35,695 nucleotides of DNA from the NCBI GenBank assembly GCA_016860685.1, contig BOJX01000026.1, forward strand, positions 1-35,695, in the 5' to 3' direction. Positions 2,125-26,115 of the stretch are shown here, piece after piece (position 1 is the stretch's first letter; each line of letters starts with the position of its first letter). This DNA is from Planctomycetota bacterium. GTDB lineage: Bacteria; Planctomycetota; Phycisphaerae; UBA1845. The translations under genes were made by a program, and so were the position numbers. Under the pieces are notes generated by a model. It ran no database searches, was not told the origin of the DNA, and saw only the letters and a program-made list of their open reading frames with translations.

Positions 2125-2165
2125 GCCGGGGGAGCTTGTTGCTCCGGTCGGTCCGGCTGATTTTT
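2125..2165 (+). terminator. Candidate Rho-independent terminator after the hydratase gene
   Basis: An inner stem GGAGC-TTGTT-GCTCC (2131-2145) is flanked by an outer GCCGG (2125-2129) and CCGGC (2153-2157) with an asymmetric internal loop. It is followed within three bases by five T residues (2161-2165). It lies between convergent genes, and its T tract overlaps the stop codon of the tricorn-like gene on the other strand. Confidence 0.45.
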
Positions 2166-5100
2166 ACTTGTCTTCCTCGCGGATGCCCATCCCGCTGCGG
2201 TCCGGGTAGGCCGGGCGCGCGGGTTTGACATAAGGATTGCGCTGAAGCTCCTCCAGCATATGCGCGATCGCCGCGTCGAGCTGCGGATCGCCGCCGTCCA
2301 CCATCTTCGCCGGGTCGTCGATCACCTCGAGGTCCGGATCGACGCCGTGACCTTCGATGCCCCAGGTTCCGTCGCGCTCGTAAAAGGCGAAGGTCGGCGC
2401 GGTGATATTCCCGCCGTCGATCAGTTGCGGATTGCCCGAGATGCCGACAAGCCCGCCCCACGTTCTCATGCCGATCAGCTTGCCCAGCCCCGACTGCCTG
2501 AACAGCGCCGGGAACATGTCGCCGCCCGAACCCGCCAGTCCGTTGATGAGCATGCACTTCGGACCCTGGTGCGAGTCCGGAGGCCACGTCCAGTCATTCC
2601 CGTCGCGTCGCGCCCAGTAATTCGTCACCGGCCGGTTGAGCAGCTCGATGAACCGCGTCGGGATCTGCCCGCCGCCGTTCCAGCGCTCGTCGATGATCAG
2701 CGCGGCCTTGTCGCGCTGTCCGTAGAACTGGCGGAAGAGATCGTTCTGCCCGTCGATCCCGGTGTTGGGCACGTAGATGTACCCGACGCGACCGTCGGTC
2801 TTGTCCGCGACGTATTTCCGGTTGTGTTCGATCCACGCCCGGTAGCGCAGATTCGTGTCACTGGAAAGGAGCGTTACGACGACTTCACGCGCGGAGTCGT
2901 CGAGGCTCGCCTTCTCAGAAACCGTGAGCGTCACGGTCTTGCCCGCCAGCCCCTGAAACGCCGCCCACGGATCCTTTGCGACATCGAGCGGCGCGCCGTT
3001 AACCGCGAGGAGGAAGTCGCCTTCCTTAACGTTGACGCCGGGCTCGCTGAGCGGACCACGGGCGTCCAGATCCCACGGCGCGCCTTCCAGAATGCGGGCG
3101 ATCCGGTATACCGCGCCCGCCTGCGGATCCGTGACGCGCTCGAAGTCGCACCCAAGCATACCCACGGACACGCTCGGCCCCTGCTCGACGTCGCCGCCGC
3201 CGCGGGCGTACGCATGACCGACGTTCAACTCGGAGATCATCTCGCCGATAACGTAAGTCACATCCTCGCGCGACGTGCAATCCTCCAGCATCTTCAGGTA
3301 ACGCTCGCGGACTTCGTTCCAGTCCACGCCGTGCATATGCGGGTCGTAGAAGAAGTCGCGCTGCACGCGCCACGCCTCCGTGAAGATCTGCCGCCACTCC
3401 TCACGCGGTTCGACGGTCATCCGCAGCCCGTCGAGCGGGACGGCTTTCTCCAGCTTCTGATCCGCCGCTGGTTCGACGACGTACATCTGGCGACCGCCGG
3501 GCTTGACGACGAGGAGCTTCTTTCCGTCGGCGGACAGGCCGAACCCGGCGACGCCGTCCGCGATCGTCTTCTCCTTCCGATCATCCTTTTTCTCCGCAAT
3601 CGCGTCGAGGATCTTCAGCGAGATTCCGCCGCCCGGACCGTCGTCCGCGCCGCGGGCACGCGCCCGGCCGTAAACGAGGTGACCTTTCTCTGACACCCTC
3701 AAGCCGAAGAACTGTCCGCGGTCGACGGGCAGCAGGATCGCCCGACGCTCGAAACCGTCGAGGTCGATCGTGACGGGCTTCTTCTCCTCGTCCTTTTTCG
3801 CATCCTTGTCGTCCTTCTTCTCGCCTTTGCCGTCGTCGGACGGCTTGTCGCCCGACTCCTGCGCGTCGCCGTCCGCCGCGTCGCCGGATTCCTCGCCGGG
3901 CTTGTCCGCGTCGGCGGGTTTGTCTCCGTCGTCGCCGCCGTCATCCTTCTTTTCCTCGCCGTCCTTTTTTTCCTCGCCTTCCTTCTTCTCGTCGTTACCC
4001 TTTTCGCCTTCCTTCTTCGGCTCCTCCTCGTCGCTTTTCGCCAGATACGGCGACTTCACGTCCTTGCGGAGCGGGACGAGGATGAGGCGGTCCGTGTCCG
4101 CGTAGATGAACGTCGTGCCGACGTCCTCGTACATCGGACGGGTGAATTCGCGGTTGCTCGCGAAGTAGAGGTAGTCGCCCTTGCGATCGAAGGTCGGCGC
4201 GGAGTCGTTGAACATCCCGCGGGTGACCTGGTGCGTCTCGCCCGTCGCCACGTGGTGCAGGAAGATCGCGCCGTTCGTGTTCGTCTCCGTCCCGCGCGCC
4301 CAGGTGATCCAGCCGCTGTCGTGCGACCAGTTCATGCCCGGCGCGCCCGTCCACGGATCCACGTCGAGCACTTTCGTCTCGCCCGTCTCGACGTTGTGCA
4401 GGCGTGAGACGCCGGCCTTGTCGTTCGTCACGATCCACTTCGAGTCCGGCGACCAGCGCGGGTTGTAGTAGAACGTCCGGCTGTCGCGCGTCAGTTGCCG
4501 CGTCTCCCCCTTGCCGTCCGCACGCGTGACATAAAGCTCATACTCCCCGGTCGCGTCGGAGAAATACGCGATCCAGCGCCCGTCCGGGCTCCAGCTCGGA
4601 TCCCGCTCCGCCGCGCCGCTTGTTCGCGTCAGACTGCGCGTCGACCCCTCCTGCGCCGGGACGGTGAAAAGATCGCCGCGGGCCTCGATCACCACCCGCT
4701 TGCCCGTCGCGGACAGATCCGACCCACCCAGATTGTCCAGCGGATCCACCGCTTTTGCTCGGATCTTCGGACGATCCCCCGGAATGACGACCTCGACGGT
4801 CCGGGTCTTCTCCGTCGCCAGATCGAGCAGCATCAGGTTCGACCCGTGCTGGAAGACGATCTCGCCCTTGCCGTCCGGCCCCGGTCCCATCGCGGGCCAG
4901 CGGCAGTCGAAGGTGTCGAGATTCGTGACCTGCCGGCGCTGACCGTCGGACACGCGGTAGGCCCAGAGGTTAAGCTTGTGATTCTCGCCCGCGTCGCACA
5001 GGTAGTACACGGTGTCGCCGTGCCACATCGGCAACGTGTCCGTGCCCTCCCAGTTCGTGATCTGCCGTGACGACCGGTCTTTCAGATTGAACAACCAGAG

Positions 5101-5703
5101 GTCGGTCGCCATCCCACCCCGGTAGCGCTTCCACGTCCGCATGTCGATCGAGTGCGGCGTGTACGCCAGCCACGTCCCGTCAGCGCTGATCGCGCCGTTC
5201 GCCCCGTAAGGCACGGGGATCTGCGCCGGCAGCCCGCCCGCCGGATCGACCGTGAAAAGCTGGGTCTGTCGGGTGAGTCCTCCCAGTCCGCTCGCGAAGT
5301 AAAGAAGGCGCCCCTCCGCCGTCCAATCCGTGAGCAGTTCCGCCGACGGGTGATGCGTGACGCGCGCCGCCACGCCGCCCGTCACCGGAAGGACGTACAA
5401 GTCGGGATTCCCCTCATAATTGCCGAGAAAGGCGATCTGCCGTCCGTCCGGGCTGAACCGCGGAAAGGCCTCCTGCCCCGGCGGGCTTGCCAGCGGCGCC
5501 GCAACACCCCCTTCACGCGGCACCAGCCAGATATCGTTGGCGTAAACGAACGCAACATGCGTCGCGCTCACGTCCGGGTACCGCAACATCCCCCCGTGAG
5601 GGCGCGTACCCTCCTGCGTCACTGACGACTGCGCCATCGCACAGCCGCACGGCAGAAACGGAAGCAGCCCGGAAAAGATCAACGCCGACCGACGAGTACG
5701 CAT
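2164..5703 (-). CDS. Exported tricorn-like S41 protease with PDZ and KE-rich insert
   Basis: The protein has 1179 residues. The ATG at 5703 has AAGGAG at good spacing and opens a signal peptide (M-R-T-R-R-S-A-L-I-F-S-G-L-L then A-M-A-Q). The N-terminal half holds TolB/tricorn propeller repeats such as F-S-P-D-G-R-Q-I-A-F and W-S-P-D-G-R-W-I-A-Y. A highly charged Lys/Glu/Asp-rich stretch interrupts them at about residues 550-645. Next come a helical tricorn core domain containing N-V-G-H-A-Y (His830), a PDZ domain (G-D-F-L-L-A-V-N-G), and the S41 domain with A-G-S-G-G-D (Ser1059), R-T-W-G-G-L-V-G-I and I-E-G-H-G-V-D-P-D. By homology to archaeal tricorn, His830, Ser1059 and that Glu would be catalytic. 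The tricorn Ser preceding the His is Gly here. It probably degrades oligopeptides in the periplasm. Confidence 0.92.
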   Translation of the reverse strand: MRTRRSALIFSGLLPFLPCGCAMAQSSVTQEGTRPHGGMLRYPDVSATHVAFVYANDIWLVPREGGVAAPLASPPGQEAFPRFSPDGRQIAFLGNYEGNPDLYVLPVTGGVAARVTHHPSAELLTDWTAEGRLLYFASGLGGLTRQTQLFTVDPAGGLPAQIPVPYGANGAISADGTWLAYTPHSIDMRTWKRYRGGMATDLWLFNLKDRSSRQITNWEGTDTLPMWHGDTVYYLCDAGENHKLNLWAYRVSDGQRRQVTNLDTFDCRWPAMGPGPDGKGEIVFQHGSNLMLLDLATEKTRTVEVVIPGDRPKIRAKAVDPLDNLGGSDLSATGKRVVIEARGDLFTVPAQEGSTRSLTRTSGAAERDPSWSPDGRWIAYFSDATGEYELYVTRADGKGETRQLTRDSRTFYYNPRWSPDSKWIVTNDKAGVSRLHNVETGETKVLDVDPWTGAPGMNWSHDSGWITWARGTETNTNGAIFLHHVATGETHQVTRGMFNDSAPTFDRKGDYLYFASNREFTRPMYEDVGTTFIYADTDRLILVPLRKDVKSPYLAKSDEEEPKKEGEKGNDEKKEGEEKKDGEEKKDDGGDDGDKPADADKPGEESGDAADGDAQESGDKPSDDGKGEKKDDKDAKKDEEKKPVTIDLDGFERRAILLPVDRGQFFGLRVSEKGHLVYGRARARGADDGPGGGISLKILDAIAEKKDDRKEKTIADGVAGFGLSADGKKLLVVKPGGRQMYVVEPAADQKLEKAVPLDGLRMTVEPREEWRQIFTEAWRVQRDFFYDPHMHGVDWNEVRERYLKMLEDCTSREDVTYVIGEMISELNVGHAYARGGGDVEQGPSVSVGMLGCDFERVTDPQAGAVYRIARILEGAPWDLDARGPLSEPGVNVKEGDFLLAVNGAPLDVAKDPWAAFQGLAGKTVTLTVSEKASLDDSAREVVVTLLSSDTNLRYRAWIEHNRKYVADKTDGRVGYIYVPNTGIDGQNDLFRQFYGQRDKAALIIDERWNGGGQIPTRFIELLNRPVTNYWARRDGNDWTWPPDSHQGPKCMLINGLAGSGGDMFPALFRQSGLGKLIGMRTWGGLVGISGNPQLIDGGNITAPTFAFYERDGTWGIEGHGVDPDLEVIDDPAKMVDGGDPQLDAAIAHMLEELQRNPYVKPARPAYPDRSGMGIREEDK

Positions 5704-5806: not shown

Positions 5807-8800
5807 TCAAAGCTCCGGTCCGCGATCGTCGGTTCCCGTCCCGTCGGCATCCTCGGGTTCCGCGATCTCATCTTCCGCTCCGGTCCCGCCGCGCTCCCAC
5901 GGACGGTAATCCGGGTACTCCGGGTCGGTTTGCACTTCGAGCCGCTCGGTCAGTGTCTTCCCGTCAACTTTCAGCGCGATGACATAACTGCCCGACGGAA
6001 CCAGCGACGCCCCTCCACGAAAACGCCCCTGACCCGGTGCACCTCCGCCCGAAGGCGCTTCCGGCGGCGTCCGACGCAGATCCCACGTCACCCGGTGCAG
6101 ACCGGCCTCTCGCTTCGGCTCCAGCGCGCGGACCAACTCCCCCGAGAGGTCTTGAATCTCAAGACTGACGCGCTGCGCGGGTTCGCGCAGCAGGTAGAAG
6201 ATCTCCGCCTGATCGTTCGGATTCTCTCCGACAAAGCGACGGGCGCCGGAGTCCCCGCGGCTCGGCTCGGGACGCCAGTAAATCCGGTTGTTCGGCTTGA
6301 ACAAATGTGCGTCCGCCGTGATCGTCTTGCGCGTCATCTGCCGGATCGGCGTCACGTCGAGAATCCAGAGGCTTCGCCCGTGCGTCGCCGCGACGACTTC
6401 GCCGGCTGTCGGATGAATTGCGAACTCATGCACCGCCACGGTCGGCAGGTTCGTGTTGAGCCTCGTCCAGCTTCCGCCGCGATCGACGCTGACGTACGCG
6501 CCGAACTCCGTCCCGAGATAAAGGATGTCCTCGTTGACCACGTCCTCACGGATGACGCGCGTCGAACCTGCCGATGTCGGCAGGTTCGCCCGGATCGACG
6601 TCCACGTCTTGCCTTCATCCTCCGACATAAAGACATAAGGCTCGTCATCGTCGGACCGGTGTCCGTCGAATGTGACGTACACGCGCCCGGCTTTGAACCG
6701 CGAAGTCTCGAGGCTGCTGACCCACCGCGGTCCGGGCAGCAACGTGTTCAGGTTGGTCCCGCCTGAAGACGAAGACGAAGTCGTCGGTCCCGTCGTCGCC
6801 CCGCCCGCACTCCCCGCGCCTCCCGCCGCCGCAATTCCTTCCGGGGAGACTGCCGGCGCGACGGTCGCGTTCGGAGCGGCGGGCGACTGCGCCGCAGGGG
6901 CCTGCGCCGCGGCATCCGCGCCGGTTGACGCTGGCGTCGCCTTGCGCGCCGCTTCGAAGTCCATCTCGAACACGCCGCCCTCCGCCACGAACCGCCCGCT
7001 CATGCGCTCGCCCTTGACGTTCGCTTCGAAGTCGAACGACGCTCCCTCGCGCTGCGCCGCGAAGGTCAGCCGTCCGCCGGACGGATCGAACTTGACATCC
7101 AGCATCTCGCTCTCGCCCATCTGCGACGCAACAACCCCTGACAACACGCCCGCTGCGTCGACCTTGAACGTCAGCGTGAACGCCCCGGCACCCGGCGGCA
7201 TCTGGTCGCTGATCAACTGTCCCGACCACGTGCCGACGAGGGCGGCAGCGCCGGCGGCCGTGTCCTTGCCGGCTTGCGGTGGGGCAGCCGGCGTTTCCTG
7301 GGAAGACGGTCCGTGCGAGGCGGGAGGCGCACCCGGCGGTGGATCACCTGAACCTTCGCGCGGCGGAGGTCCGCCGCGCCCCGGAGCGCCGCCCTCGGTG
7401 CGGGCGCGCTCACCGGCTTGCCGTATTTCCTCCTGCGAGATCGCCCCGTCGCGGTCCGCATCAAGGCGCTCGAACATCCCCTGCATCCGCTCCGGAACCT
7501 CGTCCTTCGTGATTTTCCCGTCGCCGTCGGCGTCCATCCGCTGGAGCATTGCGGCGAACCCGCCCCGACCTGGCGCACGTCCGCCCTCGCCCGGGGCGGC
7601 CCCCTCCGCGTGCGACGGACCTGAAGGCGGCTGGGCGGGCGGCGCCGGCGGCGAGTCGGGCTCGCGCTGCCGCGCGGCGGGCGGGTTCTCTGCAATCTGC
7701 GCGGCGGCCTTGAGGATTGCCGATGCCGCGGACGACGCCGACTCGGCAACGTTGCGCGCCGTCGCCTCAAGGACGGAGCGATCCGCCGCCCCCGCTGGCG
7801 TCTGCTCCTTCGGAAAATCCGTCAGAGGCGTCCACTGGTGCCCGCCGTTGGTCGTCACCCACAGCGCCCCGTCGTCCGTCCCGACATACAACACGTCGGG
7901 GTCGAATTTCGACTCGGCTAGCGCCGTCGCGCTGCCCTGATCCGTGCGGGTGATCTCCGGCGAAATGCGCTTCATCGCGTCACCCTTCTTCAGCGACCGG
8001 AAGACGTAATTCCCCGCCGCATAAAGGATCTCCGTGTTGTGATGCGAGAGGATCATCGGCGTCTTCCAGTTCCACCGATATCGCACCCCGCGGTCCGCCG
8101 GCGGCCGGATGAACCCGCGCTCGCCGGTGCGCAAATTGATCCGCCCCATCCCCCCGTTCTGGCTCTCGAAGTACACCTGATCGGCGTCCGTCGGATCCAC
8201 GAGGCACACGAATCCGTCGCCACCCCCGATGTTGATCCAGTCCTGGTTGATCGGACCGCGACCGGAGCGCGACCGGCTCGGCCCGCCCCAACTCCCGTTG
8301 TCCTGCAATCCGCCGTAAACCATGTAATCCCGGTTCGGGCTGGCCGCGACGTGGTAGAACTGACCGATCGCCGTGTTGTTCAGGTGGTCCCAGTGATCCT
8401 GCCGGTCGTAGGTCACGTAGACGCCGCCGTCGTTTCCGAGAATCTGATGCCGTCCGTCGCGCGGGTCGATCCACAAAGCGTGATGATCCGGATGCGCGCC
8501 GTTCCCGCCGTCCGCCGTGAACGTCGATCCGCCGTCCTTCGACCGGTACAGCGAAATTCCCAGCACGTACACGTAATTGCTGTCGCTCGGGTCAACGCGG
8601 ATTTCGCTGAAATACATCGGGCGCGGGTTGACGCTGTTGATGCGCGTCCACGACTCCCCGCCGTCCGTCGAGCGGTACACCCCGCCGAACTCGTGTCCCT
8701 CCGGACCCTGCTGGTCGTGGACGTTCTCACGCTGACCGCCCAGACCCGAACTGAACGGCGCCGTCGCCGACACGCTCTGCGGACCGCGCGGCGCGCCCTC

Positions 8801-10057
8801 CGCCGCCGGCGCCGCGCTCGCACCGGGGCGCTCGCCGAACGTCGCGTCCAGAAAAACGCTTTTGCGCTCCCGCGACACCTCGATCCGTACCTGCTCGCCC
8901 GCCAGCCGCCGCCGGACCGCCCGGTTCAGGTCGTCGTAGCCGTGGATCGTCTCGTCATCCACCGCCACCACCACGTCGCCGACAAGAAGCCCAGCCTGGT
9001 CCGCCGGACCGTCCTTCGTCACTTCCGTCAACCGCGCCCCGACGTTCGCATCCTCCCCGCGAACGCCGAAGTACGCCGCGTTCGCCGGCTCCTTCCCGAT
9101 CTGCTCCGACTCCAGCACCAGGTAAACGATGTTCGGATCCTTCCGGTAGAACTCCACGCCGATGCGCCCCAGGTGGCCCGTCGGCAGTCCCCGCACGACC
9201 TTCACCCAGTTGCGCCCGCCGTCGGTGCTTCGATAAAGCCCGCTTCCGGGCGCGATCTTCACCGCGGGATCGTTCCCGTCGAAGGCGTCTCGCTTCCGCT
9301 CATACGTCGCCGCCAGCAACGTGTCCGGTTCACCGGGCTTGAGCTGAACGTCGATGACCCCCGTCCGCTCGTCGAGGTAAAGCACCTTCTCCCAGGTCTT
9401 GCCGCCATCGACGGTCTTGAACAATCCGCGCTCCTCGTTCGGACCCCACAACCGTCCGAGCGCTCCGACGTACGCCACGTCCGGGTTCGTCGGGTGCAGC
9501 GCGATCTGTCCGATCTGAAAACTCCCCTTCAACCCGCAGTGCGTCCACGTCTTGCCGCCGTCCGTCGAGCGATAAACACCGTCGCCCCAGGAAACGCTGT
9601 TGCGCGGGTTCGCCTCGCCCGTCCCCACCCAGACGAGGTCGGCGTTCCCCTGAAAGACCGCTACATCGCCGATCGACACCGTGTTCTCGTGGTCGAACTG
9701 GTGCTCGAACGTCACGCCGTTGTTCACCGTCTTCAGCAGCCCCCCGCTGGCGGTCGCGACGTACCAAATCGACGGATCGGCCTCGTACACGGCGATCGCG
9801 GTGATGCGCCCGCCCATGTTCGCCGGACCGATGCACCGCCACGACAGCGACTCCACCCACGCCTCGTTCAGGACGGACCCGCCTCCGCCTTCCTGCGCCG
9901 CATGCACCCTCGACAGGCTTGCAATCAGACAGGCGACGACCAACGCTGCAAGACCTCGACGCGGCCTCTGAACCGAGCCGCGCCCGCAAGAAAGCGGGGC
10001 GGTTGAACCTGGCAAGCAGCGTTTGCAGCAGTTCGTCAAGGCAACGATCCGGTTCAT
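5807..10057 (-). CDS. Exported BNR/sortilin-type propeller protein with PDZ, EF-hand and beta-barrel insertions
   Basis: The protein has 1416 residues. The ATG at 10057 has GGGAG eight bases upstream, followed by a long basic n-region, a hydrophobic core near residues 35-48 and V-H-A-A-Q as probable cleavage site. Many Asp-box/BNR motifs of the form S-T-D-G-G-K-T-W occur (V-Y-R-S-T-D-G-G, L-F-K-T-V-D-G-G, M-S-E-D-E-G-K-T-W), as in sortilin/VPS10-like ten-bladed propellers. A PDZ domain is inserted at about residues 330-412 (G-P-A-D-Q-A-G-L-L-V-G-D-V-V). Between two propeller blocks sit Pro/Ala-rich linkers, two EF-hands (D-A-D-G-D-G-K-I-T near residue 836, D-A-D-R-D-G-A-I-S near 872) and a roughly 95-residue beta-rich domain starting G-T-W-S-G. 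The C-terminus resembles a FlgD-like/Ig strand domain. It lies 103 bases upstream of the tricorn-like gene. The ligand is unknown, and catalysis is not evident. Confidence 0.9.
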   Translation of the reverse strand: MNRIVALTNCCKRCLPGSTAPLSCGRGSVQRPRRGLAALVVACLIASLSRVHAAQEGGGGSVLNEAWVESLSWRCIGPANMGGRITAIAVYEADPSIWYVATASGGLLKTVNNGVTFEHQFDHENTVSIGDVAVFQGNADLVWVGTGEANPRNSVSWGDGVYRSTDGGKTWTHCGLKGSFQIGQIALHPTNPDVAYVGALGRLWGPNEERGLFKTVDGGKTWEKVLYLDERTGVIDVQLKPGEPDTLLAATYERKRDAFDGNDPAVKIAPGSGLYRSTDGGRNWVKVVRGLPTGHLGRIGVEFYRKDPNIVYLVLESEQIGKEPANAAYFGVRGEDANVGARLTEVTKDGPADQAGLLVGDVVVAVDDETIHGYDDLNRAVRRRLAGEQVRIEVSRERKSVFLDATFGERPGASAAPAAEGAPRGPQSVSATAPFSSGLGGQRENVHDQQGPEGHEFGGVYRSTDGGESWTRINSVNPRPMYFSEIRVDPSDSNYVYVLGISLYRSKDGGSTFTADGGNGAHPDHHALWIDPRDGRHQILGNDGGVYVTYDRQDHWDHLNNTAIGQFYHVAASPNRDYMVYGGLQDNGSWGGPSRSRSGRGPINQDWINIGGGDGFVCLVDPTDADQVYFESQNGGMGRINLRTGERGFIRPPADRGVRYRWNWKTPMILSHHNTEILYAAGNYVFRSLKKGDAMKRISPEITRTDQGSATALAESKFDPDVLYVGTDDGALWVTTNGGHQWTPLTDFPKEQTPAGAADRSVLEATARNVAESASSAASAILKAAAQIAENPPAARQREPDSPPAPPAQPPSGPSHAEGAAPGEGGRAPGRGGFAAMLQRMDADGDGKITKDEVPERMQGMFERLDADRDGAISQEEIRQAGERARTEGGAPGRGGPPPREGSGDPPPGAPPASHGPSSQETPAAPPQAGKDTAAGAAALVGTWSGQLISDQMPPGAGAFTLTFKVDAAGVLSGVVASQMGESEMLDVKFDPSGGRLTFAAQREGASFDFEANVKGERMSGRFVAEGGVFEMDFEAARKATPASTGADAAAQAPAAQSPAAPNATVAPAVSPEGIAAAGGAGSAGGATTGPTTSSSSSGGTNLNTLLPGPRWVSSLETSRFKAGRVYVTFDGHRSDDDEPYVFMSEDEGKTWTSIRANLPTSAGSTRVIREDVVNEDILYLGTEFGAYVSVDRGGSWTRLNTNLPTVAVHEFAIHPTAGEVVAATHGRSLWILDVTPIRQMTRKTITADAHLFKPNNRIYWRPEPSRGDSGARRFVGENPNDQAEIFYLLREPAQRVSLEIQDLSGELVRALEPKREAGLHRVTWDLRRTPPEAPSGGGAPGQGRFRGGASLVPSGSYVIALKVDGKTLTERLEVQTDPEYPDYRPWERGGTGAEDEIAEPEDADGTGTDDRGPEL

Positions 10058-11372: not shown

Positions 11373-13076
11373 CTACTCATCCTTCTTCGGCTTCTTCTTG
11401 GCGTCCGAAGGCTTCGGCTCGCCCTCATCCGGATCGTCCGGATCCTCCGCACCCTTCTTCGCGGGAGCTTTGCCCTTGCCCTTCGCGGGAGCCTCGTCCT
11501 CCTCCTCGTCCGGGTTGTCCATGTAGCCCAGCCCTTCCAGCGCCTTTTTCTGGGCCGGCGTGAGGTTCGGTCGGGCGTCCTCGTCCTCGCTCATGCTGCC
11601 CGTGCCCTTCAGGTCGAACCACTTCTGCACATAAGGCCGGTATTTCTCAACGAGGTCGCTTCGGATCTCGGCGAGATTCTTCGACTCCGTCGGGTCGCGC
11701 GAAAGATCGTAGACCCAGACCTCGCCGGCCTCGACGTGCAGCGGCGGGTGCGTCTTGAACGGCGTGATGCTGTAAATGACCTTGATGTCTCCGTCGCGGA
11801 TGACGATCTGGCGGTTGTTGCCGTGCTCGTGGACGAACACCTGGCGCGAGGACAGCGCCGCGTCTTTCTCCCCCTTCATCGCCGACGCGAGGCTGACGCC
11901 GCGCAGCGGGTTCTTGAACTCGATCCCGTAAAGCTCGGCGATCGTCGGCGCGATGTCGAGTTGCGTGACGCGCTCCGAGACCTTCACCCCCGGTTTCAGT
12001 CCCGGCATGCGCATGATGAAGGGCACGCGCAGCGACGGCTCGAACGTGAAATAATGATTGAAGTACATCTCGTGCTCGCCGAGGTTCTCGCCGTGGTCAC
12101 CGACCAGCACGATGCCCGTCGTCTCCGCCAGCCCTTTCTCGTCGAGGTATTTGAGCAGCCGCCCGATGTGAAGGTCCGTGTAATTGACCTCGGCCTTGTA
12201 CAGCGCCATCGGATACTCGAGGTCCGTCACGCCGGTGAGCCACTTGCTTTTCTGGATGCTCGGGTGCTTGCGGATCTCCTCCTTGCCGGGCGCCTTCGGG
12301 TTGCCCTGGTAATACTTGGACAGAAAGTTCTTCGGCGGCGCATACGGCGCGTGCGGATCCCAGTAATGCACCCAGATGAAGAAAGGCTCGGTCTCGTTCT
12401 TGCCCAGCCACTCCAAGGCGCGATCCGTGACCTCCTCGGCCGAAAGATACGTCTTCGGATCCGGGGCGACGTCGTAAATGTGGTCAAACCCCTTCCACCC
12501 CAGCCACGCGGACACGTGCGACGACGACGGGAACCCGGCCGTGCGATATCCGGCGCGCTTGAACGCCGCCGGAAGCATGTCCACGTCGCGCTCGATCTGC
12601 TGCTCGTTGTCCAGAATCCCGTGTTCGATGCCCATCAGACCAGTCATGACCGTCATGTGGCTGGGGTTGGTCTGGTTCGTCTGACTCATGCCGTTCAGGA
12701 ACAGCGTTCCCGTGGCGGCCAGCTTGTCGATGTGCGGCGTCAGGTCCGGGTGTACGCCGTAAGCGCTGATGTGGTCGGCGCGGGTCGTGTCGAGCGTCAT
12801 GATGATGAGGTTGCGCTTTTTCCCCTCCCAGAAAGGCTTGCCTTCCGGACGCGGTTTTCCGGGGGTCGTCAGGTCCACCGGAAGGTCACCGGCGCTTGCG
12901 CTGAGGGCCGGCGCCGCAACCGACAGGTACCCCAGCCCGCCGAGGCGGGCAGGATTCGGCTCCCGGGCGGCGCCCCGAATCTGAGGCTCCGCCGCCACCG
13001 ATTGAAGCCCCGCAGCAAGGACGCCTGAGAAAGCTGTAATTGCGCCGATTACGCATAACCTTTTAAAAATAAGCAT
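11373..13076 (-). CDS. Exported sulfatase-fold hydrolase with Thr at the nucleophile position
   Basis: The protein has 567 residues, with a signal peptide (M-L-I-F-K-R-L-C-V-I-G, cleavage near V-A-A-E at 27-30). The alkaline-phosphatase/sulfatase superfamily fold is shown by L-D-T-T-R-A-D-H (95-102), W-D-P-H-A-P-Y (239-245), V-G-D-H-G-E (325-330) and L-D-I-A-P-T. The C/S-x-P-S-R signature that formylglycine sulfatases need is replaced by T136-N-P-S-H140, so the nucleophile is probably Thr, as in phosphotransferase or phosphodiesterase relatives, and a formylglycine-dependent sulfatase is unlikely. The last 60 or so residues are Lys/Glu/Asp/Pro-rich and end in K-K-K-P-K-K-D-E. The enzyme probably cleaves a phosphate or sulfate ester, or transfers a phospho-group, outside the cytoplasm. 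The substrate cannot be read. Confidence 0.9.
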   Translation of the reverse strand: MLIFKRLCVIGAITAFSGVLAAGLQSVAAEPQIRGAAREPNPARLGGLGYLSVAAPALSASAGDLPVDLTTPGKPRPEGKPFWEGKKRNLIIMTLDTTRADHISAYGVHPDLTPHIDKLAATGTLFLNGMSQTNQTNPSHMTVMTGLMGIEHGILDNEQQIERDVDMLPAAFKRAGYRTAGFPSSSHVSAWLGWKGFDHIYDVAPDPKTYLSAEEVTDRALEWLGKNETEPFFIWVHYWDPHAPYAPPKNFLSKYYQGNPKAPGKEEIRKHPSIQKSKWLTGVTDLEYPMALYKAEVNYTDLHIGRLLKYLDEKGLAETTGIVLVGDHGENLGEHEMYFNHYFTFEPSLRVPFIMRMPGLKPGVKVSERVTQLDIAPTIAELYGIEFKNPLRGVSLASAMKGEKDAALSSRQVFVHEHGNNRQIVIRDGDIKVIYSITPFKTHPPLHVEAGEVWVYDLSRDPTESKNLAEIRSDLVEKYRPYVQKWFDLKGTGSMSEDEDARPNLTPAQKKALEGLGYMDNPDEEEDEAPAKGKGKAPAKKGAEDPDDPDEGEPKPSDAKKKPKKDE

Positions 13077-19009: not shown

Positions 19010-20972
19010 GCGCCGGGACGCTCGCCGCGCGGGCATCGATCGGAAAGGACGGAATGTCCGACAGCCCCAACTCGCGCAGCCGCCGGCGCATCGCGCGCGA
19101 GAACCGGTCCGTCGAAATCACGATCGCGTCCACGTTGAACTCGCGAACCCGCGACGGTTCGACGACAGGCCAGTCCAGAAAGCGCCCCTGAGCATCCGGT
19201 CGCGGCTCATCATCCAGGATGACGCGCACCGGAACCGGCGACGCCCGGTAGACGTCCGCCATCCGGATCGTGAAGCGCCCCGCGCCGTATACGCCGATTC
19301 CGCGACATCCACCCGCCGCCAGCGAAGTCAAAAGTCGGCGCAGTACAACGTGGTCCTCGAAGTCATGTGTTCGTCCGTCTTGCGGACCCGCCGCGCTGTC
19401 TTGGTTCGTCTCGCCAGGCCCGGAACGCGCCCACTCTGATCCGCTCAGCGGCCTCCACGTCCGCACCTTCGCAACGGCCCCACCGGGTTCCTCGCGGCTG
19501 GCAAGCTGATACAGCCTGAATCCGGTCCGCTGTGCTGCAACCTGGTAGCCCAGCCCCAGCCCCACGTGCGCCGCCTCCACGTCAAAGCATCGCCCCGTGT
19601 CAAGGATGAATGCCGGCGGATCGGCGAGCATCTTATCGTTCAACTCGGCTTGCCATCCCGGATGCATGTCGTCCAGGTAATGCTCCGGCGCCACGATCGG
19701 TGTCGGCCATCCCGACCCGATCAGCACGCCCGCCTGATTGTGAGGTCCGTAAACCAGGAGTGAACGCCCGCTGACGATCGTTCTCACTCCCTCGCAAAAC
19801 CCGGCAAGTGCCGCGTTTTCATCGGCACGCACCGGATTCAATGACCCGCTCCAGACCCAGCGGTTCCGCCGCACGGGATTCATGAAAGCGGAGCGCACCG
19901 GCGTTCCGATCAGCCAGACCCCCACCGCGACGACGCTCACTCCGATCCCTGCCGCCCCCTTGTCCACCAGCGCCACCACCGCACCGGCCGCACAGACCGC
20001 AATCGGTGGAAGCACCGGAAGCAGGTAATACCGACAATCCGTATTCTGCGCCGCGTATGCCGCCAGCGCCGCTAGAAAATAAAGGAGAATCAAGGAATCC
20101 GGCGTTGCGTTCAGAAACGCAGACGCCGCCGCCAGCAGCGGAATCACCGGTTGGCGCAGGGCGGTTCGAACGAAGCGGCTGCCTTTCTCGTGCAAACGAT
20201 GCCCGTAACGCACGCCTGAGCCGCGCTTCGCAAAGCTCGCTTCGTGCCCCCGAAGGGGAGCGAACCACTGCATTGGACTTCGCCCGAGATAGACGAGCCA
20301 CCCGGCGAACATCACTGCGGCAGCGCCTCCGCCTGCCAGTACCGGAACCGCGGTCCACGGCGCCAACACGATTCCTGCGCCGAAGAATACGGTCCAGGTT
20401 ACGGCGGCGCTGAGTTTCACAAAACAAGCTTCAAATGCGAACGAGAACGCCGCCAGCGCCACCAGGTCCGGCGCTTCCGACTTCACTCCGATCGCGAAGG
20501 CGACCACGCTGAGAAGCTGAAACGGAACCTCGAAGACTTCGGCGCACTCGAACCCGCCCCCGTAATGCGGCTCGCTGGACAAGAAGGCGTGACAGATCAA
20601 TCCGGCGTAAAAGAGTCGTACATCGAAATCGGCCAGGGTCATCGCCAGAACACCGGTCAGGACGCAGGAAACGTAGTTCACCCCCGACGTCCCCCAGCGC
20701 GACCACGAAAGGTAGCGTCGCGCCGCCGTCCCGGCGTCCGAACCTCGCCGCCCGAGCAGGTAGAGACGGGAGAAGAACGCCTCGGGGATCAGCTTGCTGC
20801 CCCCCGCATAATGCGCGTTCCAGCCGCGCCGGAAATCCCAGCAGCCGGTCGCGAGCGTGGCGTTCGAGACGTAGAAGCCCGTGTCGATGTGAAGCGGAAG
20901 CTTCCGGAAGGGTTCGCGCAGCAGCAGGTAAACCGGGAAGAACGCCGCCGCGAACAATACCGCTGCGATCAT
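18987..20972 (-). CDS. GT-C-like polytopic membrane protein fused to a Rossmann-like domain
   Basis: The protein has 661 residues and roughly ten hydrophobic spans in the first 370. The first periplasmic loop carries an acidic motif ([10 protein letters not shown]), as in GT-C glycosyltransferases that use lipid-linked sugars (GT39/GT83/ArnT-like). A soluble stretch follows. The last 110 residues look like a separate nucleotide-binding domain, with [11 protein letters not shown] near residue 555 and then [15 protein letters not shown] and V-D-A-I-V-I-S-T-D. This resembles the Y-G-A-G/D-D-x-P domain appended to some sugar-modifying enzymes. The ATG overlaps the upstream methyltransferase stop (ATGA), so translation is coupled. 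It is the last gene of the glycan cassette and a candidate to transfer the sugar made by its neighbours. Its glycosyltransferase activity is inferred. Confidence 0.75.
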
Positions 20973-21778
20973 GTCCGCGACTCCTCGTCGCCGATATCCG
21001 GCTCCGCGGCGCCGACCCGTGTTGCGGGGCGCGTGTCCGATGTGGGGGCTAACGCCTCCGGCATCGGAGAATCAGGTATGACCTCAAGCGTGTCGACCCG
21101 TCGTTCGACGAGGACGCTTTCAGACCGGCGTGCAACCGCGCCGATGAAGAACCGCCAGAAATACGTCAACCCGGACTCGACGGTCAGCCCCGCCTGCCGC
21201 AGGAGCACGTCCAGCGCGCGTCGGCGGAACACGGGACCGATCCACGTTCCCCAGTGCGTCCGTCGAATCAGCGGTTGAAAACCCAGCGGTCCGGCGGCAT
21301 AAGGCACGCCGACGAACACGCGGCCCTGTGAGTGACACACGCGCGTCATTTCCTTAAGACCGTCCAGCGGTCGGTCGAGATGCTCGAGCGTGCTGCTGTT
21401 GAAGACCAGGGTGAAGGCGCCGTCGCGGAAAGGCATCGCTCGAAGATCCCCGACCACCGCCAGCACACGCGGATCCCGCGCCCGGGCGGCGCGCAGCGCC
21501 TCCTCATCCGAGTCCAGACAGACGGCCGCGGTCGTCCGGGCATCATCGGCGAAGAGTGACGTCGCAAAGGCCGTTCCGGAACCCGCCTCCATCACGCGCC
21601 AGCCGCGGTCGGCAAACGCCTGCCCCCCACCCTCGTTTTCCGCGGTTTGTCGCTGTTCCAGCGATTGCGTCAGGAACCGCACAAGACGTCGGTTGACCCT
21701 CCGTCGCAGCGCATCAAAGAACCGGTACGGCCAGCCCCCTACGTCGCCCACGAACTGCCACGATCGCGCCAGGCTCAT
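20969..21778 (-). CDS. Class I SAM-dependent methyltransferase (cassette copy 2)
   Basis: The protein has 269 residues. ATG 21778 has AAAGGAGG upstream and overlaps the preceding methyltransferase stop (ATGA). The SAM-binding motif I is V-M-E-A-G-S-G-T (63-70), a Ser-for-Cys variant of the usual E-x-G-x-G-T. D-L-R-A-M-P-F-R-D-G-A-F and N-S-S-T-L-E-H-L-D follow, typical of Methyltransf_11 proteins. There is no membrane segment. The C-terminal 40 residues are Pro/Glu/Asp-rich. Position inside a sugar/lipid-carrier gene set suggests methylation of a sugar or glycolipid, but the substrate cannot be read. Confidence 0.85.
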   Translation of the reverse strand: MSLARSWQFVGDVGGWPYRFFDALRRRVNRRLVRFLTQSLEQRQTAENEGGGQAFADRGWRVMEAGSGTAFATSLFADDARTTAAVCLDSDEEALRAARARDPRVLAVVGDLRAMPFRDGAFTLVFNSSTLEHLDRPLDGLKEMTRVCHSQGRVFVGVPYAAGPLGFQPLIRRTHWGTWIGPVFRRRALDVLLRQAGLTVESGLTYFWRFFIGAVARRSESVLVERRVDTLEVIPDSPMPEALAPTSDTRPATRVGAAEPDIGDEESRT

Positions 21779-22521
21779 CCCGCCTCCTTTCGCGCCACGA
21801 GCAGCACCGTCGATCCGAAGGGCAGCGGAACGCGACGACACAAGCCATGATCCAGCCGACTGACGTTCAGCAGCGCCGTGTTCAGCCAGTTCGGAATCGG
21901 GGCCAGGTCGGACTCGGGCGATCCTCCGCCGACGCGTCGCTTCCGGGCCAGCCGAACCGCCGCAATCACCGGAAAAAACAACGAAAATCGGTATCCCGCC
22001 TTCAGCACGCGGAAACCCGATGCCCGGACCGCCCTCCTCAGGGATTCGACCGTGTATCTTCGTTCGGAGTGGACGGCTTCGTCATGCGCCGAGCGCAACC
22101 ACTGAAACGCAGGCAGCAGCAGCACCAACGTGCCGTCGCGTCTGAGCACCCGCGCCATCTCATTTAAAGCTCGCCCAGGGTCAACCCCTCGGCATCCGAG
22201 CACGTCCACCGAATACACCAGATCGAAAACCTCGTCCGCGTAGGGCAGGTCATTGACGGACGCGACGCACCCGGTTCGCTGAAGCTCCGCTCCCCAGTGC
22301 GACGCCGCCAGCGGCGACACATCCGCTCCGTACCCGCGGACCGGAGCCTCCGACAGCACCGCTTCAAGATTGCCCCCCGTCCCGCATCCGGCGTCGAACA
22401 CCCGCGCTTCCCGGGGCAGACGCAGCTCCCGGATCGCCTCGAGAACATTCTCGCGCTGCGCCAGGTACCACCAGTACCAGGTCTCGAAGCGACGAAGACG
22501 GTTGTACTCGGCCGGTTCCAT
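21775..22521 (-). CDS. Class I SAM-dependent methyltransferase (cassette copy 1)
   Basis: A 248-residue protein starting M-E-P-A-E-Y-N-R-L-R-R-F-E-T-W-Y-W-W-Y. It has a clear motif I V-F-D-A-G-C-G-T-G-G-N-L (41-52), acidic residues in G-A-D-V-S (the adenosine ribose site), D-L-P-Y-A-D-E-V-F-D-L-V and a post-motif V-L-R-R-D-G-T-L-V-L-L-L. The middle helix A-H-D-E-A-V-H-S-E-R-R-Y is common in methyltransferases of surface polysaccharide loci. The start follows the cupin gene by 22 bases without a strong ribosome site. The sugar substrate is not evident. Confidence 0.87.
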   Translation of the reverse strand: MEPAEYNRLRRFETWYWWYLAQRENVLEAIRELRLPREARVFDAGCGTGGNLEAVLSEAPVRGYGADVSPLAASHWGAELQRTGCVASVNDLPYADEVFDLVYSVDVLGCRGVDPGRALNEMARVLRRDGTLVLLLPAFQWLRSAHDEAVHSERRYTVESLRRAVRASGFRVLKAGYRFSLFFPVIAAVRLARKRRVGGGSPESDLAPIPNWLNTALLNVSRLDHGLCRRVPLPFGSTVLLVARKEAG

Positions 22522-22543
22522 CGTGATTCGTCAGTCGGGCCGG

Positions 22544-22957
22544 TCAGGCGGGGTCGTCTTCGACCCGGAACGGAATCGTGTCGGGTCGGGCGGGGTCATA
22601 AGGCTCGGACTTCAGAAGCAGGAACTCCGCGTCGGCCAGAAAGCGGATGGCGTGCGCTTCGTTCGTCTCAAGATACGTCCCCTCACCGGTTTCCAGGTGG
22701 GTGGTCCGGCGATGCCCGTCGGTTACGCGGACAATCCGCACCGTCGCGCGCCCGCGCAGCAGAAAAAAGCACATTCGCGTCCGGCGGTGATAATGATGCC
22801 CCAGCACTGCCCCGGATCGCATATGCCCCGTGATGACGGTGTGCCACGGGCCTTCACGCAGCACTTCCGTGAAGGTGCCCCGCTCGTCACGCCGGGTGAA
22901 CGAGGGGTGAATCACGTCGTACCTGCTGGAGTTCGTTCCGGGGGAAGTCGCGGGCAT
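22544..22957 (-). CDS. Small cupin of the WxcM/QdtA/CapF-C type
   Basis: The 137-residue single cupin has cupin motif 1 as G-H-H-Y-H (53-57) followed by F-F-L-L-R-G-R-A-T-V, and motif 2 His102 in T-N-E-A-H-A-I. The pattern R-G-T-F-T-E-V then H-H-Y-H resembles the cupins acting on nucleotide-sugar intermediates, such as QdtA/FdtA 3,4-ketoisomerases, WxcM and the C-terminal domain of CapF. The Glu usually present in motif 1 is Met62 here, so the metal site or the catalytic role may be altered. Its ATG directly abuts the stop of the upstream GT2 gene (TGAATG). Next to a DegT aminotransferase, a role in making an amino-deoxy sugar is plausible but unproven. Confidence 0.75.
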   Translation of the reverse strand: MPATSPGTNSSRYDVIHPSFTRRDERGTFTEVLREGPWHTVITGHMRSGAVLGHHYHRRTRMCFFLLRGRATVRIVRVTDGHRRTTHLETGEGTYLETNEAHAIRFLADAEFLLLKSEPYDPARPDTIPFRVEDDPA

Positions 22958-23749
22958 TCAGTCGATCCTCCGGAAACGCGCTGTCAGAATACGCGTTACG
23001 TAGCCCATCCCCGCCCAGAAGAAACGAAGCAGGTTCGGCGCCGACTTGGACACCCCCACCGCCCGGTCTCGAAACGCGTACCCCACTTCGGTCACGCGAA
23101 GGCCCTTCCGACGGCACGTGAAAAGAAACTCGATGAAATACGCTCCGTATCCCGTCGGGATGATCGACACACGGTCGAACACACTCCGCCGCAGCACCAC
23201 AAAACCACTGTCGTAGTCACGGATGCCGTAGCCCAGAACCAGGCCCGCGAAACGGTTGATCAGCCGGCTGGCGAAGACCCGCAGGGCGTGGCGGTTGTCG
23301 CTTCCGCCGGGCGCATAACGCGATCCGACGACGACATCCGCGTCCTGAAGGCGGCGGATCATCTCGGGCAGCAGCGAGGGCGGCATGCACATGTCCGCGT
23401 CCATCCAGCCCACCACGTCGCCGCGTGACTCGATGATCCCGCGGTTGAATGCCGACGCCAGCCCCCGAGTCGCCACCCGGCGGATGACTTTGACCCGATC
23501 ATCTCCTATCTCGGCGACTTGCTTCCACGTCTGATCCGGCGAGTCGTCGTCCACCACGATGACCTCAACTTCACCGGTCACGTGCTCAAAGATCCCACGG
23601 ATCGTGTCCGCGATCAGTTCGCGCTCGTTGTAGGTGGCCAGAATGATCGACGTCAGCTTCGGGGAAAACGGCGCAGGTCGATGCGCCGCTGCCTCCGCGG
23701 CGTTCCGCTCGTCGGCGTACCCCGTCAGAACCGGCGTCAACGCTGACAT
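22958..23749 (-). CDS. GT2 glycosyltransferase, polyprenol-phosphate-sugar synthase type
   Basis: A 263-residue GT-A fold enzyme with an approximately 30-residue variable N-terminus. Conserved blocks are T-S-I-I-L-A-T-Y-N-E-R (33-43), V-I-V-V-D-D-D-S-P-D (64-73), the metal-binding D-A-D at 117-119 (G-W-M-D-A-D-M), and R-D-Y-D-S-G-F, all typical of Dpm1-like enzymes that load a sugar onto polyprenol phosphate at the cytoplasmic membrane face. There is no C-terminal membrane pair, as in short Dpm1 proteins. Its start lies 13 bases inside the end of the aminotransferase gene, and the next gene's ATG abuts its stop. Confidence 0.87.
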   Translation of the reverse strand: MSALTPVLTGYADERNAAEAAAHRPAPFSPKLTSIILATYNERELIADTIRGIFEHVTGEVEVIVVDDDSPDQTWKQVAEIGDDRVKVIRRVATRGLASAFNRGIIESRGDVVGWMDADMCMPPSLLPEMIRRLQDADVVVGSRYAPGGSDNRHALRVFASRLINRFAGLVLGYGIRDYDSGFVVLRRSVFDRVSIIPTGYGAYFIEFLFTCRRKGLRVTEVGYAFRDRAVGVSKSAPNLLRFFWAGMGYVTRILTARFRRID

Positions 23750-24891
23750 GCCCGCAACTGCTCCACCACGTAGTCCTGCTCCGCTTCCGTCAGACCTTCG
23801 CCCGACGGCAGGTACAGCCCGCATGCCCCCAGGTGCTCGCTGACCGGGTAGCGCCCGCGGAGGTCCAGCCGATGCGGGTCGCGCCCGTCGAAGACCGGCT
23901 GCTGATTCATCGGAATAAAGAAAGACCGCGTCTCCACGCCGCGCGCCACCAGGCGCGTCATCACCTCGCCGCGCGTCCGGCCGAACGCCTCCTCAAGCAC
24001 CACGCCGTACATCCAGTACACGTTTCGGCAGCCACGAAGCTCGACCGGACGGCGCAGGACTTCGACGTCTTTCAGCAGCGCGTCATACCGCTCGGCAATC
24101 GCGCGCTTTCGGGCGAGTTTCTCCTGAATGCGCTCGACCTGCGCCAGGCCGATCGCCGCCTGAAGATTCGTCAGGCGGTAGTTGAAGCCCACCTCGTCGT
24201 GTACGAAGCGGACCGGTCCGAACGCCTGATTCCGCAGCAGGCGCAGCCGCTCCGCGACGGCGACGTCCTGCACCAGCACCATCCCGCCTTCGCCGCAGGT
24301 GATGATCTTGTTTCCGTAAAAACTGAAGCACGCCGCGTCGCCGAACCCGCCGACGGGACGCCCCTGATACGTGGCGCCGTGGGCCTGCGCCGCATCCTCG
24401 ATAACATAAAGCCCGTGTTCCCGTGCGATGGCGAGGATCGGGTCCATGTCGCACGGGTGTCCGTACATATGCACCGGCATGATCGCCCGCGTTCGCGGCG
24501 TGATCTTCTCCCGGATGCGCCGCGGGTCGATGCACCACGTATCCGGGCGGACGTCCACCAGCACAGGTTTCGCTCCTGCAAGGTGAACCATGTTGGCCGA
24601 GGCGATCAACGTGAACGCCGGAATCAGCACTTCGTCGCCGGGGCCGACGCCCAACGCCTTCAGCGCCAGGTGCAGCGCCGCCGTCCCGTTGCAGCACGCC
24701 ACGCCGTGCGCCGCGCCGCACGCCCGCGCCCACGCCTGCTCGAACCGGTCGATGTACTCGCCTTGCGAGGACACCCAGCCGCTGTCCAGCGCGTCGAGAA
24801 CGTACGCACGCTCGCGTCCGTCCAGAACTGGCGCGCATACCGGAACGCGCCTCACGGGCGACGAAGACCGGCGATCCGTGACCTTGAGCAT
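23737..24891 (-). CDS. DegT/DnrJ/EryC1-family sugar aminotransferase
   Basis: A 384-residue PLP enzyme. The internal aldimine Lys195 sits in F-S-F-Y-G-N-K-I-I-T-C-G-E-G-G-M, Asp166 (V-I-E-D-A-A-Q-A-H-G) binds the PLP pyridine nitrogen, and W-V-S-S-Q-G-E-Y-I marks the N-terminal substrate loop. The overall pattern is closest to perosamine synthase/RfbE-type enzymes that convert 4-keto-6-deoxy-NDP-sugars to 4-amino sugars. The exact product cannot be fixed from motifs. ATG 24891 has GGGGAGAG upstream. The nucleotide-sugar dehydratase that would supply the 4-keto substrate is not in the window. Confidence 0.92.
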   Translation of the reverse strand: MLKVTDRRSSSPVRRVPVCAPVLDGRERAYVLDALDSGWVSSQGEYIDRFEQAWARACGAAHGVACCNGTAALHLALKALGVGPGDEVLIPAFTLIASANMVHLAGAKPVLVDVRPDTWCIDPRRIREKITPRTRAIMPVHMYGHPCDMDPILAIAREHGLYVIEDAAQAHGATYQGRPVGGFGDAACFSFYGNKIITCGEGGMVLVQDVAVAERLRLLRNQAFGPVRFVHDEVGFNYRLTNLQAAIGLAQVERIQEKLARKRAIAERYDALLKDVEVLRRPVELRGCRNVYWMYGVVLEEAFGRTRGEVMTRLVARGVETRSFFIPMNQQPVFDGRDPHRLDLRGRYPVSEHLGACGLYLPSGEGLTEAEQDYVVEQLRACQR

Positions 24892-25005
24892 GACTCTCCC
24901 CGGTTCCGCGCGGATACCGGGCGCGGAACGTCGGTGATTTATCGGATAAAGCGATCGCCGGACTGGAACGGCGGTTGCCCGGAAGGCAGCCGGACCCCGG
25001 GTCGT

Positions 25006-26115
25006 TCAAAGAGGGGCACGACCTTGCACCGCCGCCGTCGGCGCGGTGCGATCCGACACCATCCCGCTCGCGGCGGGGTCAGGGAAGTTGACCGTCCGCG
25101 TAATGCGCCACGGACGGCGTCCGAGGACGTAAAAGTGATTGCGCATCACAAGTTCGCAGCAAAGCCCGATCCCGACCAGCGCCAGGCTCCCGACGCCCAG
25201 AACCGCCGCCAGCAGCACCGGCACATCCAGGATCGGCGCTTTTCCCAGCCCGCGCACCACGCCGTAGCCGCCGACCAGCGCCCCCGCTGCAAAAAGATAT
25301 CCCGCCACTTTCGCAAAAAGATGCGACGGGCGCGTCCGGTACTTGAAGAGCAGGCGGACCAGCGCCAGATCCGCCAGCACGCGCGGGATGCGCGAGAACC
25401 CGTATTTGCTGACGCCGACGACGCGCGGGCGGTGGCGCACGACGATCTCCGCCACCGTCCCGCCCCGCGCCCGCACGTACACCGGAAGAAACCGGTGCAT
25501 CTCGCCGTAAAGCTGGCTCGGATCCAGGGCGCCCCGGCGGTACGCCTTCAGCGTGCATCCGTAGTCGTGCAGCGGAAGGCTCGTCGCCTTCGAGATCAAC
25601 CGGTTGGCGACGCGGGACGCGAAGCTGCGCAGCGCGTCGTCGTGGCGGTCCCGCCGCCACCCGCTGACGCAGGCGTAACCTTCGTCGAGTTTCTCGATCA
25701 GACGGCGCATCTCTGACGGATCGTTCTGACGGTCACCGTCCATCGTGATGATGACGTCGCCCGTCGCCGCCTCCAGCCCCGCCGCCAGCGCCGCCGTCTG
25801 TCCGAAGTTGGCTGCGAAGTGAATGACGCGGATTCTCGCGTCGCCGCGGGCCAGCTCGTCGAGCGCGCGATCCGTCCCGTCGCGGCTCCCGTCATTGACG
25901 ACGACGATCTCGTATGACCGCCCCAGGGCGTCCGCCTCTCGGCGCACTTCCTCCAGCAGCGGACCGACGTTCCCGGCCTCGTCGTATGCCGGAATCACAA
26001 TCGAGAGTGCGGGCGATCTGCTTGACGACGCCCTTCCGCCCGGCGCCTGCGTCTCCGCGCGGAACGCGGAATCCGCGCCGCCGACCTCGTTCCGCGCCTG
26101 GTTCATTCGGGTCAT
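25006..26115 (-). CDS. GT2 glycosyltransferase with two C-terminal membrane helices (ArnC/GtrB type)
   Basis: The 369-residue enzyme carries GT-A blocks L-S-I-V-I-P-A-Y-D-E (37-46), V-V-V-N-D-G-S-R-D-G (71-80), D-G-D at 126-128 and A-N-F-G-Q-T-A-A-L. V-R-H-R-P-R follows, then two hydrophobic helices (near 268-290 and 295-322). This layout is that of undecaprenyl-phosphate sugar transferases such as ArnC and GtrB, which make the lipid-linked donor later used outside the membrane by GT-C enzymes. A 35-residue disordered, Ser/Arg-rich N-terminus precedes the domain. The ATG overlaps the LAB_N gene stop (ATGA), so the two are translated as a pair. 114 bases separate it from the aminotransferase. 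Confidence 0.9.
   Translation of the reverse strand: MTRMNQARNEVGGADSAFRAETQAPGGRASSSRSPALSIVIPAYDEAGNVGPLLEEVRREADALGRSYEIVVVNDGSRDGTDRALDELARGDARIRVIHFAANFGQTAALAAGLEAATGDVIITMDGDRQNDPSEMRRLIEKLDEGYACVSGWRRDRHDDALRSFASRVANRLISKATSLPLHDYGCTLKAYRRGALDPSQLYGEMHRFLPVYVRARGGTVAEIVVRHRPRVVGVSKYGFSRIPRVLADLALVRLLFKYRTRPSHLFAKVAGYLFAAGALVGGYGVVRGLGKAPILDVPVLLAAVLGVGSLALVGIGLCCELVMRNHFYVLGRRPWRITRTVNFPDPAASGMVSDRTAPTAAVQGRAPL

Follow-up and report, generated by a model that had tools for sequence, protein, structure and literature searches.

A predicted GH74-like double propeller from a planctomycete with a PDZ domain, an EF-hand pair and a recurrent beta module inserted in its loops

The stretch of DNA studied here, referred to as the window, comprises 35,695 nucleotides of contig BOJX01000026.1 (assembly GCA_016860685.1) from a Planctomycetota bacterium (Phycisphaerae; UBA1845). 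It contains a gene for a large protein that combines Asp-box propeller blades with an embedded PDZ domain, two EF-hands and a beta domain (Table 1). The start codon, an ATG at 10057, was picked by inspection, and the N-terminal Sec-type leader, judged in the same way, indicates that the protein is probably secreted. Four Pfam models matched above their gathering cut-offs, namely Sortilin-Vps10 as the top match (E 6.7e-32, four stretches), PDZ_2 (E 3.4e-13, residues 329-401), BNR (E 1.4e-10) and EF-hand_5 (E 3e-10, two stretches, best 835-853), with all Pfam EF-hand matches falling within residues 835-881. The PDZ region was also matched by a DegP-like chain (4e-7), and a FlgD_ig match at residues 1286-1326 remained sub-threshold (E 1.7e-5, 25.2 bits versus a cut-off of 27). 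The 19 Pfam families with matches up to E 1 included no Dockerin family. The BNR and Sortilin-Vps10 matches, the strands of the structural model and visible Asp-box-like stretches place the protein in the Asp-box (BNR) superfamily.

Table 1. Features of the propeller gene and the adjacent protease gene in the window
Feature	Position	Strand	Basis
CDS, PDZ/EF-hand/beta-module Asp-box double propeller, 1416 aa	5807..10057	(-)	open reading frame (ORF) list
N-terminal leader, residues 1-54, Sec-type: RPRR / GLAALVVACLIASL / VHA-AQ	9896..10057	(-)	inspection only
Predicted first seven-bladed propeller, blades 1-7, ~residues 85-558, interrupted by PDZ	8384..9805	(-)	models, aligned ranges
PDZ domain, ~residues 325-412, blade 5 strand 2-3 loop	8822..9085	(-)	Pfam, alignment, models
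Predicted second propeller, blades 8-14, ~residues 567-1234, interrupted by insert	6356..8359	(-)	inferred from strands and aligned ranges
Insert, ~residues 748-1105, blade 11-12 loop	6743..7816	(-)	family alignment, models
EF-hand pair, residues 834-889	7391..7558	(-)	Pfam, alignment, model
EF loop 1, residues 842-853, DADGDGKITKDE	7499..7534	(-)	sequence, alignment
EF loop 2, residues 866-877, DADRDGAISQEE	7427..7462	(-)	sequence, alignment
Unnamed 8-stranded beta module, residues 939-1039	6941..7243	(-)	alignment, profile searches, model
C-terminal FlgD_ig-like beta domain, ~residues 1280-1370	5948..6220	(-)	Pfam sub-cut-off match, model strands
Tricorn-like S41 protease, next gene, 103 bases downstream	2164..5703	(-)	Pfam, alignment

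Two proteins were folded with homolog alignments, residues 60-1254 of the window protein and L026, a relative that lacks both the PDZ domain and the insert. The L026 model (mean predicted local distance difference test, pLDDT, 83; predicted template modelling score, pTM, 0.79) exhibits one N-terminal strand followed by 14 blades, several of which have short outer strands and the last of which is three-stranded; the slot for the PDZ domain lies at residues 265-286 and that for the insert at residues 588-598. Blades flank the insert on both sides in the models of both proteins and in the family alignment. GH74 chains occupied Foldseek ranks 1-25 in whole-length matches of the L026 model and were also the top 15 VIA rows of the window model (Z 27.2-28.6, 4.2-5.6 Å, 494-611 residues; Z 26.8-28.6 for the GH74 chains of this list overall), and nine of the 12 PDB sequence matches of a profile built without the insert were likewise GH74. 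HMMER alignments to GH74 2cn3 were short pieces, out of blade order, and thus too unreliable to locate the GH74 catalytic residues. Single-propeller chains made up 24 of the 50 VIA rows of the window model, running from model residues 19-33 to 491-506 at 2.6-3.0 Å, and residues ~19-506 would accordingly represent blades 1-7 of the model. Six more rows (ranks 16, 18, 19, 25, 26 and 44) aligned ~289-309 residues between 3-7 and 1177-1194, and the single-propeller rows on L026 began at 1-15 and ended at 719 at least. We infer that these long-range rows represent the N-terminal strand together with blades 8-14; alternatively, blades 1-6 could be closed by blade 14, in which case blades 7-13 would form the second propeller. 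Either split puts the slot after blade 11 inside a predicted propeller, in the former case between its fourth and fifth blade. The two seven-bladed propellers characteristic of GH74 are present in the models, with the split drawn from the ranges, and we describe the protein on this basis as a GH74-like 7+7 double propeller of 14 blades.

The ~360 residues of the insert comprise two canonical EF loops and the beta domain of ~100 residues between disordered linkers. In 10-residue blocks of the window model, pLDDT is 71-90 for the PDZ domain, 57-84 for the EF pair and 71-90 for the eight-stranded beta module; the linkers of ~50-85 residues around the insert domains are mostly below 50, with many blocks below 35. 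The insert thus probably consists of two small, flexibly tethered domains, a picture that disfavours a stiffening of the insertion as a whole by calcium. Both EF-hands show the helix-loop-helix pattern with ligands at positions 1, 3, 5 and 12 and glycine at position 6, and both loops are canonical in all 11 aligned EF-bearing homologs, the window protein included. The beta domain is retained in these 11 proteins as well (25-99% identity to the window, seven invariant columns), and given the conservation of both parts the insert is not a product of chance. When the window sequence was compared with those of the relatives L009, L010 and L013, the ratio of nonsynonymous to synonymous substitution rates (dN/dS) for the EF region was 0.08, 0.07 and 0.10, respectively. 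The beta module gave 0.02 and 0.15 against L009 and L010, and the three linkers gave 0.05-0.70 against the same two relatives, lowest in the middle linker (0.05 and 0.13). The sequence supports a local, structural binding of calcium by the EF pair; no result points to a calcium switch or to a stiffening of the entire insert. NCBIfam matches to Lanmodulin (20.5 bits, cut-off 135) and XopAW (32.5 bits, cut-off 120) were rejected and taken as generic EF similarity. As a separate observation, the same genome encodes a BlaR1-type M56 peptidase fused to several C-terminal EF-hands (L031:136-2130, + strand), which is an unusual EF-hand fusion.

A scan of genome contigs yielded 21 loci that are all planctomycetal by their titles. 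This set is biased toward insert carriers because two of the six search peptides stem from the insert. The slot is reached in 19 of these loci (L016 ends before it and L029 is too short), of which 10 contain EF pair and beta domain and nine contain neither; seven of the latter have 10-15 residues at this position, one has 48 and one has a linker of 122 residues. The relatives with the 10-15-residue loop share the same propeller core. PDZ copies, counted by eye, range from none (L026) to three (L025), and 20 of the 21 rows gave a PDZ_2 match. In 61 genomes of the order, 18 places were matched, 14 of them more remote homologs that matched neither EF pair nor beta domain; in L058-L067, 10 of the 14, the BLAST spans are too tight to accommodate a PDZ domain, and in the other four (L054-L057) the consensus has a short loop at that point. 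C23, a paralog from the genome of the window itself, was matched in three pieces that are 27 and 93 bases apart, so that there is no room for either insert. A sample without this bias was obtained when blades 9-11 alone were searched against 294 genomes of the phylum, and 35 places in 34 genomes matched at E 1e-40; 30 loci including the window were read and five places were left unread. Among these 30 loci, picked by propeller similarity, the slot holds both domains in three, the EF pair only in nine (one of them, L121, being cut off downstream), the beta domain only in nine, and a linker of 41-109 residues only in the remaining nine. The idea that EF pair and beta domain form a single unit was rejected because they occur apart at the same slot, and the sequences indicate separate histories for the two. 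Long-insert members are grouped in the phylogenetic tree; given the low backbone support (0.33-0.66, and 0.12 for the corresponding node in another tree), the tree does not fix the number of gains and losses.

The anatomy outlined so far bears on the prediction originally made from the sequence alone, which had proposed a sortilin-like propeller with blades on either side of a large, possibly calcium-responsive module of two EF-hands and a beta domain, and a separate PDZ domain embedded earlier. Pfam stretches, family alignment and models agree on the flanking blades, the 11 homologs bear out the content of the insertion, and the PDZ domain is indeed present and sits in blade 5. The structure prediction that had been recommended as a check located the insert within the second propeller and not between two complete ones. 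The recommended search of other planctomycetes did recover loci with both EF pair and beta domain; it also recovered loci with either domain alone, or neither, so that the single module had to be given up. Of the proposed effects of calcium, rigidification does not agree with the poorly modelled linkers and nothing speaks for a switch, while local structural binding fits the sequence.

The beta module extends well beyond this protein. A profile detected it at E 0.001 in 15 genomes of the order (61 searched) and at 1e-5 in 41 genomes of the phylum (294 searched). We read 44 loci, the window included; the genus loci L033 and L035 and 29 places from the phylum search are not part of this set. The module sits in a GH74-like propeller in 14 loci, four of which also have the EF pair; 15 loci have a tricorn-like S41 protease as the host (four at 25-28% identity only) and 10 an amidohydrolase (one weak). 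The other five are short or tandem-repeat ORFs of none of these types. All eight hosts submitted to Pfam, four tricorn-like and four amidohydrolases, were confirmed, and the module precedes Tricorn_C1 in the four tricorn-like hosts that were aligned. In 43 aligned modules, three positions (G4, W6, G83) do not vary and two more (G36, R100) hardly do. The GxW start and the late arginine may be reminiscent of calycins. The model shows eight strands, and Lipocalin_4 reached 0.012 at best, in two of the 43 modules. No convincing match to the module was found in Pfam (best 0.0023, InlJ_IG, in one of 43), in NCBIfam (best 0.016) or among PDB sequences (best 0.01, a ribosomal protein). Calycin chains were absent from the VIA rows listed; these lists are filled by propellers and so do not test the beta module. 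Sequence comparison identifies the module as a recurrent unnamed domain in three unrelated hosts of Planctomycetota. Several copies can occur together: four in an ORF of 468 residues (L092), two in L049 and two in the propeller slot of L078, and in L094 a single long match is accompanied by several partial ones.

By the usual loop convention, the PDZ slot and the insert slot are both located on the top face of the modelled propellers. According to the available parts of PMC2716378, this is the variable, functional face in known Asp-box propellers, and domains embedded in such propellers have been described before. Position conservation was evaluated for 33 sequences after the incomplete L015, L016 and L022 had been dropped, with positions identical in 32 or more counted as nearly invariant. 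Nearly invariant charged or amide residues occur at 18 of 238 top-loop, six of 186 bottom-loop and eight of 281 strand positions.

The closest whole-length fold matches, the GH74 xyloglucanases (6p2m, 5fkq, 2cn3), also consist of two Asp-box seven-bladed propellers, but identity is 13-22% in the listed rows at a TM-score of ~0.5, and they do not share the PDZ domain, EF pair, beta module and FlgD_ig-like tail. GH74 enzymes have a catalytic aspartate pair. The sialidase of Vibrio cholerae, a type 2 interrupted Asp-box propeller, likewise has a folded domain inserted in the propeller; as far as the text of PMC2716378 was available, its propeller is single and six-bladed and the inserted domain is lectin-like, whereas the window protein has two sites in a double propeller and exchangeable modules. 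Integrin alpha-I also places a metal-dependent domain between two blades of a seven-bladed propeller, but this is a vWA domain with a metal ion-dependent adhesion site (MIDAS) in another propeller family, and no homology is claimed (PMC3192720, in part). PilY1 and the 'calcium blades' combine an EF-hand-like calcium loop with a bacterial extracytoplasmic propeller; in these, however, the Dx[DN]xDG loop lies within a blade, whereas the window protein has a helix-loop-helix pair as a separate inserted domain (PMC3123361 and PMC8833165, in part). Some planctomycete tricorn-like S41 proteases have the same beta module inserted but differ in enzyme class and architecture. Domain insertion in integrin alpha-I and V. 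cholerae sialidase and calcium sites in PilY1 mean that the architecture is not unprecedented. Among the papers listed by the literature searches, no title or abstract opening describes this architecture or the beta module; the accessible text of a PDZ survey (PMC6411480) does not mention BNR, sortilin or EF-hand, and that of PMC2716378 does not mention PDZ, EF-hand, dockerin or planctomycetes.

Sequence comparison and models together show how the protein is built, that EF pair and beta domain occur separately at one slot, that the calcium ligands are conserved and that the beta module is reused in tricorn-like proteases and amidohydrolases. The explanation that we favour, with middling confidence, is a GH74-like double propeller with tethered accessory modules grafted through two top-face loops and with structural calcium. 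The double propeller would be a rigid scaffold or a hydrolase, probably secreted, that accepts zero to three PDZ copies in the blade 5 strand 2-3 loop and, via disordered linkers, an EF pair, a beta module or both in the blade 11/12 loop. These modules may act as tethered capture or docking domains over the functional face of the propellers, with calcium folding the EF pair as a structural ligand rather than operating a switch, and the beta module might bind something common to its hydrolase hosts, such as an envelope component, a glycan or a substrate class.

Several observations weigh against this explanation. The TM-scores between L026 and GH74 are 0.48-0.53 by query length with an rmsd near 8 Å in Foldseek, so that the two propellers may be arranged differently relative to each other, and single WD40 chains are level with GH74 at Z ~30 in the VIA search with L026. 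The full window model is weak overall (pTM 0.49; pLDDT blocks of 32-54 at positions 501-560), and the 7+7 split derives from strand order and aligned ranges. Strand ends for the conservation count were set by hand, and when nearly invariant positions of any residue are considered, top loops (44, 18.5%) and bottom loops (32, 17.2%) are nearly equal, with 40 in strands; only the charged and amide positions differ. The dN/dS of linker 2 falls to 0.05-0.15, and against the more distant L013 that of the beta module rises to 0.42, values that are noisy for such short regions and affected by many dS near saturation in comparisons with L013. Finally, the nine linker-only loci among 30 mean that the family can do without the insert modules.

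These linker-only loci make a serious rival of the view that insertions at the slot are tolerated and mostly neutral, with low-complexity linkers growing at this hotspot and catching domains without slot-specific function. The variable length and composition of the linkers and the unchanged core of relatives with a 10-15-residue loop would fit it as well. We nevertheless consider it unlikely, because EF ligands and beta core are kept over deep divergence, linkers 1 and 3 much less so, and because the same beta module recurs in three unrelated hosts. Quite improbable in our estimate is a true calcium switch, in which the EF pair would shift the beta module across a site for catalysis or binding on the propellers. 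Canonical, conserved EF loops and two slots on the top face are in its favour, as are, from the available parts of the reports, the ligand-binding inserted metal-dependent domains of integrins (PMC3192720) and the functional importance of calcium binding by the PilY1 propeller (PMC8833165). It is weakened by the fact that EF and beta domains are apart in 17 or 18 of the 30 loci (depending on the truncated L121), and long, probably disordered linkers on either side of the EF pair would pass little force. Moreover, calcium is plentiful outside the cell, where its levels would normally saturate EF sites.

The remaining alternatives concern the propeller itself. The protein does contain two propellers, and they might be separate and complete with the EF/beta region as an inter-domain linker; the slot after blade 11 of 14 and the fit of single seven-bladed chains to residues ~19-506 in 24 of 50 rows make this very improbable. 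Scarcely credible is an ordinary sortilin/Vps10-like receptor with accessory domains, even though Sortilin-Vps10 is the top Pfam match. The original label was dropped because the L026 model has 14 blades instead of ten, no Sortilin_C appeared among the 19 Pfam families up to E 1, and GH74 is the best whole-length match; Sortilin-Vps10 and BNR both match 21 of 21 family members, which may reflect the Asp-box repeats common to both. Returning to the double propeller with grafted modules, a more speculative extension, which we advance only tentatively and regard as unlikely, is that the beta module is a hitherto undescribed planctomycetal 'address' domain that, placed in loops of unrelated hydrolases, brings them to one common surface, matrix or partner in the manner of dockerins or carbohydrate-binding modules (CBMs); the EF pair would be a further docking element, dependent on calcium, that replaces or supplements it at this slot. 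Apart from this extension, the results show that a single loop of a bacterial double propeller serves as a socket for exchangeable modules. The most interesting part is the occurrence of an unnamed domain in three unrelated hosts; if one ligand is common to its copies, the domain would help to understand how planctomycetes organise extracytoplasmic digestion and to assign functions to many unannotated proteins.

The gene downstream of the propeller gene encodes a tricorn-like S41 protease, for which the start was set by inspection (the ORF list has an upstream ATG at 5871). A terminator-like site was not found between the two genes. At ~residues 555-650, the site of the beta module in four aligned relatives, the window protease has a long, acidic low-complexity linker rich in lysine, aspartate and glutamate. 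A conserved operon was considered and rejected: the protease gene lies next to the propeller gene in the window, L009 and L010 (the latter two being close relatives) and in none of the other 19 loci of the contig scan, several of which are short. All-against-all comparison of flanking ORFs gave two small common groups (three and four loci) and nothing wider. Elsewhere in the window, genes for two methyltransferases, two family-2 glycosyltransferases, a DegT/DnrJ aminotransferase and a LAB_N (lipid A) protein lie on one strand (20969-26828, -) and are perhaps an envelope sugar/lipid cluster. The window also contains genes for a sulfatase (11373-13076, -) and an OprB-type carbohydrate porin (27835-29283, +). 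A UvrA-like ORF of 1839 residues (29620-35139, +), about twice the usual length, matches ABC_tran, UvrA_inter and UvrA_DNA-bind.

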